This document shows positions 33,876 through 35,138 of a stretch of DNA of 64,000 nucleotides, piece by piece. The stretch is from NCBI GenBank assembly GCA_022736555.1, contig DZCW01000001.1, positions 62,001 through 126,000 of the forward strand. The letters run 5' to 3'. Below the pieces are notes generated by a model. That model saw nothing but the letters and a program-made list of their open reading frames with translations, was not told where the DNA came from and did no database searches. Positions within the stretch are counted from its first letter, which is position 1. Every line of letters begins with the position of its first letter. The position numbers were made by a program, and so were the translations under genes. This DNA comes from Candidatus Saccharimonas sp. (GTDB taxonomy: Bacteria; Patescibacteriota; Saccharimonadia; Saccharimonadales; Saccharimonadaceae).

Positions 33876-34733
33876 TTATTTGATAGTCCATTGGTTGCCG
33901 CCTAGTGCGCGGATCGTACCGGATATTTCTAGCATAGTTATAGCCTGCATAAATTCGCTTGTTTCGACTTTTGATAGTTTATATAATTTGTCACCATCGC
34001 GGATGCCTGACTGTATTAATTCAATAATTATTGACTCGGTTCTATTGTTACCCAGAGGCAACATAGCCTGGGGTTTTAACAGATCTGGAGCGATAATTTC
34101 CAAAACGTCTTCTGCGCACGTGATTGGGTGCGCCCCTTGTTTTATCAAATTATTACATCCAGCCGACAGAGGGCTGGTGATATTACCTGGTACAACAAAA
34201 ACTTCACGGCCCTGTTCCAGGGCGTGCATAACAGTTGATAATACCCCACTCCTAGTAGCTGCTTCGGTTACTATTATCGCATCGGATAGGCCGCTAATTA
34301 TACGATTGCGTTCTAGGAATCTAAAGATACGAGCTTCGGTCCCTGGTAAATATTCGCTAATAATAGCGCCGCTATTATCTAGGATATCGCTAGCCAAACC
34401 CTTATTAGTGGCGGGATAGATGGTATCAACTCCGTTGGCTAAAACGGCCATGGTTATGCCGCCGGCATCTAATGCGCCGCGGTGAGCTATGGTATCAACA
34501 CCTAATGCCAGACCACTGACTACGACCACTCCATAGCGAGCCAGATCGTAAGCTAATTTATAAGTGACCTCTCTACCGTAATTAGTAGGCTTGCGTGAAC
34601 CGACGACGGCTACTGTACAACGCCTGGTTTCGGGCAATTTACCAATAAAATACAATTTTTTAGGACTTTTAGCAATAGTATCTATGATCTGTAGGTAATT
34701 GTGGTTAACCGGTGTTATTGCATTGATTTTCAT
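33876..34733 (-). CDS. dprA: DNA processing protein DprA
   Basis: Binds incoming single-stranded DNA and loads RecA during natural transformation; also widespread in non-competent bacteria. The 285-residue protein has the Rossmann signature VAVVGSRKPTNYGREVTYKL and VVSGLALGVDTIAHRGALD. MAVLANGVDTIYP, GAIISEYLPGT, RFLERNRIISGLSDAIIVTEA and a C-terminal winged helix (about 225-285) follow. Its promoter shares a palindromic -35 region with the divergent ncRNA. Confidence 0.93.
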   Translation of the reverse strand: MKINAITPVNHNYLQIIDTIAKSPKKLYFIGKLPETRRCTVAVVGSRKPTNYGREVTYKLAYDLARYGVVVVSGLALGVDTIAHRGALDAGGITMAVLANGVDTIYPATNKGLASDILDNSGAIISEYLPGTEARIFRFLERNRIISGLSDAIIVTEAATRSGVLSTVMHALEQGREVFVVPGNITSPLSAGCNNLIKQGAHPITCAEDVLEIIAPDLLKPQAMLPLGNNRTESIIIELIQSGIRDGDKLYKLSKVETSEFMQAITMLEISGTIRALGGNQWTIK

Positions 34734-34753
34734 ATAAATTATGTCAGTAAGTG

Positions 34754-34782
34754 TTGACTTTAAGTCAAATACGTGCTAATAT
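34754..34782 (+). promoter_or_regulatory. Strong promoter of the structured ncRNA; palindromic -35
   Basis: TTGACT (34754-34759), a 17-nt spacer and TAATAT (34777-34782) with an extended TGC. The -35 lies in a 15-bp perfect palindrome TTGACTT-T-AAGTCAA (34754-34768) that also offers TTGACT on the minus strand toward dprA, with CATAAT at 34738-34743 as a possible -10 (19-nt spacer). Confidence 0.7.
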
Positions 34783-34787
34783 CGGTT

Positions 34788-35039
34788 TCGATTGGTTACA
34801 TTGCGAGATTAACCAAACGCACCTTATACCCCCTATTCTAACTTATGTTAGATTACATGCAATGTATTTTGAGGTAGAATACCCTCCTTTCTCAAGACTA
34901 TATAGCATTGCATGTATACTAACCCCTTTAACCGGCGAACATCTGCGATTCAATCGAGATCTGTTACGTTTACCCCTCGGGTGGGTTAAAGGGTAAAATA
35001 CACCCACAGCGATGCCCACCCTTGCTGTGGGTGTTTTTT
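34788..35039 (+). ncRNA. Structured RNA of about 250 nt with intrinsic terminator (unknown family)
   Basis: Downstream of a strong promoter lie consecutive perfect stems: TTGGTT/AACCAA (34792-34797, 34811-34816), TCTAAC/GTTAGA (34837-34852), an 11-bp stem TACATGCAATG/CATTGCATGTA (34854-34864, 34906-34916) enclosing TTGAG/CTCAA, and a 10-bp stem CCCTTTAACC/GGTTAAAGGG (34924-34933, 34984-34993). A terminator ACACCCACAGC/GCTGTGGGTGT with six Ts closes it. No coding frame fits: the open frame starts within the -35. I find no landmarks of tmRNA, RNase P RNA, SRP RNA or 6S RNA. The next gene has its own promoter, so this looks like a separate transcript, although a riboswitch-like leader is possible. 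Confidence 0.7.
35000..35039 (+). terminator. Intrinsic terminator of the structured RNA
   Basis: Perfect 11-bp stem (35000-35010 with 35024-35034) followed by TTTTTT; the strongest plus-strand terminator in the window. Confidence 0.9.
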
Positions 35040-35138
35040 GTCCAATCTATTATTGACAGATTACGGATATAATGTTATTTTATGTTTATTGTATCTATTC
35101 ATACAATGAATCTTAGAAATTAGAAAGAAGGTAATATT

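Follow-up and report, generated by a model that had tools for sequence, protein, structure and literature searches.

A structured RNA gene divergent from dprA in Saccharimonadia, with a conserved loop resembling the 3' tail of 16S rRNA

Within the stretch of Candidatus Saccharimonas sp. DNA analyzed here (the window, 64,000 nucleotides in full), the region upstream of the divergent dprA gene is almost certainly the gene of a stand-alone structured RNA, although no transcript data are at hand. The features of the locus are as follows, in window coordinates.

33876 to 34733, reverse strand: dprA, the divergent conserved neighbor, not part of the RNA; it adjoins 63 of 78 RNA loci, and the RNA lies upstream of dprA in 25 Saccharimonadia loci from other orders.
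34754 to 34782, forward strand: sigma-70 promoter TTGACT-17-TAATAT with an extended -10 (TGC), read from the sequence; the same promoter precedes the RNA at relatives' loci.
34789 to 35039, forward strand: RNA gene, supported by fold energy (z = -7.87), homologs in 326/393 genomes of the class, and covariation.
34792 to 34816, forward strand: helix P1, hairpin UUGGUUA/UAACCAA, 95% paired, with double changes in 3/7 pairs (alignment A5).
34819 to 34837, forward strand: unpaired 5' element GCACCUUAUACCCCCUAUU, near-invariant in family f1 (alignment A5).
34838 to 34851, forward strand: hairpin P2, CUAAC/GUUAG, read from the sequence and extended by matching changes in relatives.
34847 to 34923, forward strand: long arm P3, with base GUUAG:CUAAC and stem 34855-34864/34906-34915; double changes in 9/10 stem pairs, 96% paired, arm z = -5.5.
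34880 to 34887, forward strand: P3 apical loop UACCCUCC, like the 16S 3' tail, supported by loop counts and by a first base equal to the 16S base in 15/16 genomes.
34924 to 34993, forward strand: helix P4, CCCUUUAAC (34924-34932) with GUUAAAGGG (34985-34993), enclosing P5; 99% paired, double changes in 8/9 pairs (86 sequences).
34935 to 34969, forward strand: helix P5 within P4, 93% paired, double changes in 7/7 pairs.
34980 to 34985, forward strand: GGUGGG, proposed kissing partner of the terminator loop, found within P4 in 82/86 sequences versus about 4% by shuffling.
35000 to 35039, forward strand: terminator hairpin with conserved 13-nt loop GAUGCCCACCCUU (35011-35023) and U6; double changes in 10/10 modeled stem pairs.

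The promoter consists of a -35 element, TTGACT, at positions 34754 to 34759, a 17-nt spacer, and TGC-TAATAT ending at 34782. Taken singly, such a match is not above chance (five of equal quality found, 3.7 expected); the element is seen, however, at nearly every homologous locus read, and this conservation bears out the promoter proposed in the preliminary description. The start of the RNA gene was inferred from the -10 element, and its end was set at the U6 of the terminator (35034-35039), which follows an 11-bp stem (35000-35010/35024-35034) whose pairs covary. The RNA is thus about 250 nt long here, and 180 to 430 nt long in relatives. No conserved open reading frame was found in the RNA region: the start of an 81-amino-acid frame lies within the promoter, and indels and inserts of any length separate the relatives. 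A peptide-coding RNA was rejected on this ground, in agreement with the earlier view that no plausible protein is encoded. That view had also placed a small membrane gene at the flank of the feature. We exclude this gene, because the downstream genes differ between relatives; the conserved neighbor is dprA. Two further observations concern the interval 34733 to 34782. The -35 element of the RNA lies within an inverted repeat (TTGAC-N5-GTCAA) that many relatives retain, and dprA looks leaderless, with a promoter that overlaps that of the RNA.

The fold of positions 34780 to 35045 has an energy of -88.9 kcal/mol, compared with -55.8 +/- 4.2 kcal/mol for shuffled sequences, and none of 200 shuffles was as good. 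At least six helices were found, several with compensatory changes, where at least four perfect stems had been claimed. In the 86 distinct sequences of an alignment fitted to a covariance model, 25/26 pairs of P4, P5, and the terminator stem showed compensatory changes, and 96.6% were paired, versus at most 53% when the strands were slid. The unfitted alignment A1 gave double changes in 16/26 pairs of the same helices, with 92.7% paired. For P1 and P3 together, 12/22 pairs were doubly changed (9/10 in the P3 stem) and 96.9% were paired; sliding the strands lowered this to 37% or less. RNAalifold, run without a given structure on an independent basal set, recovered the P3 apical hairpin, P4, and P5, with 12/21 pairs doubly changed. 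A set that includes other classes agrees with the fold, though about 15 of its rows are weak antisense or chance matches. Lack of covariation in relatives had been named as a result that would refute the RNA; covariation is instead strong in A1, in the 86 sequences, in P1/P3, and in the basal set. These comparisons show that the predicted fold, composed of P1, P3, P4 enclosing P5, and the terminator hairpin, is conserved.

Some strands have alternative partners. The GUUAG of P2 can pair with positions 34919 to 34923 as the base of P3, and energies favor either pairing, depending on context; in family f30, a P4 strand can likewise join P3. These alternatives look like strand exchange during folding, which is not proved. 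The fold also accommodates additional sequence. In loci L004 and L005, the P2 loop is enlarged by inserts (about 60 and 170 nt) whose ends match (GTGAACTTACCGC...GCGGTAAGTTCAC), and inserts also occur in L091 and L095; they resemble a small mobile element tolerated within the RNA. In several families (L149-L154, L159-L162, L166, and L167), an extra domain of 100 to 150 nt within P4 replaces the short P5, with recurring GUGAG, GGCGC, and GACGCUUC motifs.

The terminator loop is near-invariant in Saccharimonadaceae-type sequences, and its core CCCACC is kept in most Saccharimonadales. Its complement, GGUGGG, adjoins P4 in most of the 86 sequences; about 20 have lost this first site and have a copy in P5 only. 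The partner site thus moves yet stays complementary, which argues for a real contact with the terminator loop. Family f31 has a C-rich terminator loop without an obvious partner, and the contact is therefore not universal.

All 17 Saccharibacterial dprA loci examined share the divergent promoter and the conserved blocks. A search with R1, a covariance model built on the 3' half of the RNA, detected the RNA in 326/393 Saccharimonadia genomes, usually as a single copy, and a re-search of 40 genomes picked among those with R1 matches found it in all 40. The RNA upstream of dprA in the 25 loci from other Saccharimonadia orders is a shorter form; none was found upstream of dprA in three loci from other classes. 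R2, a covariance model built from the basal forms of those other orders, extended the RNA to at least three further Patescibacteria families: f72 (seven genomes), f83 (two genomes), and f129 (one genome). All eight of these loci that were read have the promoter, the P3 hairpin, P4, and the terminator, and six of the eight are divergent to dprA; their homology is supported by these shared elements and this position. Two R1 matches in other classes (G596 and G702) were dismissed as chance, as they lie in apparent coding sequence and lack the motifs. In a further set of more than 60 loci, the majority of them dprA loci from other phyla, no E value fell below 0.7. Within everything searched, the RNA is confined to Patescibacteria (CPR), and it was present in an ancestor of several of their lineages. 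The preliminary description had suggested a CPR-specific regulatory RNA. A stand-alone structured RNA that is absent from Rfam and limited to CPR in our searches is what we find; the regulatory role is plausible and has not been demonstrated.

Judged from the aligned sequences, no other unpaired element of the RNA family is as conserved as the P3 apical loop. This loop reads UACCCUCC or CACCCUCC, with the family consensus U/C-ACCCUCC, and among the 86 sequences ACCCUCC occurs in 65, ACCUCC in 18, and UCCCUCC in 3. CACCCUCCUU is invariant in 16/16 basal sequences from many families; genomes G033 and G104 have altered loops. Because the surrounding stem changes freely, the loop itself appears to be under selection. 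It resembles the 3' tail of 16S rRNA, AU[U/C]ACCUCCUUU, which reads GGAUUACCUCC or GGAUCACCUCC. The tail is GGAUUACCUCCUUUCUAG in Saccharimonadales, f31, and f32, and GGAUCACCUCCUUUCUAG in f30, f33, f34, f35, f37, f38, f40, and f72. Most P3 loops have one extra C compared with the tail (ACCCUCC versus ACCUCC), and some genera, g3 among them, have the loop AUUACCUCC, identical to the 16S tail of the other f1 genomes. A 16S sequence from a Saccharimonadia genome (L268 in G043) has the tail GGAUCACCUCCUUAAA and a helix 18 unlike the class, and is probably from a contaminating contig.

The first base of the loop equals the 16S base that precedes ACCUCC in 15/16 genomes, dividing them into a U group (G002, G003, G033, G041, G058, G074, G111, and G175) and a C group (G001, G005, G006, G013, G022, G035, and G461). 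The sole exception is G016, of family f37; G104 was ambiguous and was excluded from the comparison. The 16S tree nests family f32 within C lineages (98/99), the dprA tree sets it apart from the U clade, and this placement indicates that U arose at least twice, each time jointly in the 16S rRNA and the RNA. The tracking of the 16S base by the loop base is suggestive, not conclusive, as it comprises about two independent changes and the core of the tail is near-universal.

This raises the possibility that the RNA acts in trans as a mimic of the 16S tail. The single long arm P3 would display an unpaired anti-Shine-Dalgarno sequence that competes with the tail of the ribosome for its partner, most likely the Shine-Dalgarno (SD) regions of messages, and this competition would alter the balance of translation between leaderless and SD-led messages. 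We put this forward tentatively, as a real possibility that falls short of even chances; partner and effect are inferred, without transcript, binding, or phenotype data. The broader proposal, in which an ancient Patescibacteria RNA imitates and co-evolves with the 16S tail and, in hosts that have lost Era and RbfA, takes part in maturing the ribosome or choosing start sites, whether as decoy or as partner, would make it a translation-machinery RNA of an undescribed kind, and we hold it to be somewhat unlikely. In the whole genome that contains the window, 234/668 genes are SD-led and 89/668 belong to a leaderless class, with TATAAT-like boxes 3 to 9 nt before the start and a sharp peak at 6 to 7 nt. 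As both classes are common, the RNA could shift the balance between them. The exact complement of the loop, GGAGGGU, occurs at 13 sites genome-wide and at one called start only, that of thymidylate synthase, so that there is no broad target set with a full 7-nt match, and general blocking of SD regions by the full 7-nt loop was rejected. A duplex energy scan for specific targets in one genome gave no outstanding target.

Other explanations of the loop must be weighed against the tail mimic. It could be an ordinary small RNA seed for a few specific messages, with its likeness to 16S rRNA arising only from shared G-rich SD targets. C-rich loops aimed at SD regions are a known strategy of small RNAs (PMC10746234, PMC6778093), GGAGG is found at 36 starts, and the hpf-like gene is one of the plausible partners that emerge from the duplex scans. 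We nevertheless consider such a seed rather unlikely: no recurrent target has been established (one genome scanned), the near-invariance of the loop across classes exceeds what shifting targets usually demand, and the matching 16S base is left unexplained. A protein might read the loop in place of a message. Era is the best-known reader of the 16S 3' tail in other bacteria, and no Era-like G1 motif was found by a crude motif scan in our genome or in one f72 genome that carries the RNA. The genes era and rbfA are, moreover, nearly absent from Saccharimonadia, Dojkabacteria, and WWE3 (PMC12641178). With these factors lost, the RNA could be the scaffold of an RNA-protein particle whose protein reads the loop, and perhaps the 16S tail too, in 30S maturation or initiation, and a complex fold with a pseudoknot, present in one copy and near-universal in the class, would suit such a particle. 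On the other hand, no protein partner is known, and Era itself is unlikely as the reader of the loop, because none was found and its near-absence from the class is published; we judge the particle to be unlikely.

Two further explanations were weighed. If the loop contacted the G-rich stretch near P4 of its own RNA, or another rRNA site, its conservation would be structural. Pairing of ACCCUCC with the GGUGGGU beside P4 would be possible, with a single U-U mismatch; this G-rich stretch, however, is fully complementary to the terminator loop, and it varies widely among lineages while the P3 loop does not. The sole rRNA target tested was 16S rRNA, and GGAGGGU was absent from the nine 16S sequences scanned whole, helix 18 included. 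(Helix 18 was rejected as a target also because the E. coli-like GGAGGGUGC is absent from the Saccharimonadia 16S sequences read there.) An internal or rRNA contact is accordingly quite improbable in our estimation. Finally, the region could be a cis element of dprA, by antisense transcription or promoter interference, and not trans-acting at all; the overlapping divergent promoters, the seemingly leaderless dprA, and the conserved adjacency are all compatible with this. Yet 15 of the 78 RNA loci have no dprA nearby, and genome G009 retains the RNA with no dprA found. As the RNA is kept apart from dprA in these cases, and as what is conserved is RNA structure, which promoter interference does not need, we regard a cis element as very improbable.

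Few structured RNAs are near-universal in a bacterial class, and this one is missing from Rfam. Oral Saccharibacteria that are in culture and genetically tractable are among its hosts. The RNA offers a concrete way into the control of translation or the assembly of ribosomes in organisms that are missing many standard assembly factors, as well as a new marker for the annotation of CPR genomes. The RNA may tune protein synthesis in poorly understood ultra-small parasites. If the link to the 16S tail is true, it would be a directly testable RNA that co-evolves with the message-finding sequence of the ribosome.

The window region had no match at the gathering level in Rfam 15; at E <= 10, the only match was STnc260, on the opposite strand, with 18 bits against a gathering score of 100. 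The RNA of six diverse relatives also had no match in Rfam 15, so that the RNA is uncatalogued, and the Rfam models confirm the earlier impression that landmarks of tmRNA, RNase P, SRP, and 6S RNA are lacking. No earlier description was found in open-license papers, supplements excluded; the RNA could still figure, without a name, in some large list of candidates. The window has two tRNAs only. Genome G000 carries a repeat, a stretch of at least 80 nt that is identical at C1:249191 and C5:11657.

Among the known RNAs, tmRNA and RNase P RNA share with the new RNA housekeeping-type conservation and pseudoknots; neither can be the RNA itself, as both are located elsewhere in the same genome (C3:30258 and C3:27122, respectively). 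SRP RNA was rejected because neither the small nor the large bacterial model matches the genome, which is 97% complete. 6S RNA is alike in being single copy, clade-wide, structured, stand-alone, and of similar size. The new RNA differs from it in lacking both a closing stem that joins the 5' and 3' ends and a central bubble; its 5' hairpin P1 and separate terminator, and the absence of a match to the 6S model in the same 97% complete genome, exclude this identity. Yfr1 is among the Rfam families and is much shorter than the RNA of about 250 nt described here; its covariance model gave no match even at E <= 10 in the all-Rfam scan of the window region. Yfr1/Yfr10 are near-universal in cyanobacteria, and their short unpaired pyrimidine motif is ultraconserved and directed at G-rich sites (PMC6778093, PMC2190773). 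The new RNA is likewise clade-wide with a conserved unpaired pyrimidine motif, but the motif of Yfr1 lies between two hairpins, whereas the new RNA has P4, the terminator-loop contact, and the 16S-matching base. In Alphaproteobacteria, cuckoo/alpha-r14 (NfeR1) presents an anti-Shine-Dalgarno motif in unpaired hairpin regions while the stems vary (PMC10746234), and the same holds for the anti-SD-like motif of the new RNA. That RNA has three hairpins, each with an identical CCUCCUCCC, a sequence absent from positions 34780 to 35045, so that the three-hairpin criterion for cuckoo is not met; ours has one ACCCUCC loop on a long arm and differs in architecture, in clade, and in having no Rfam match. 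By the tests run, Yfr1 and cuckoo/alpha-r14 are analogs of the RNA described here, not relatives.
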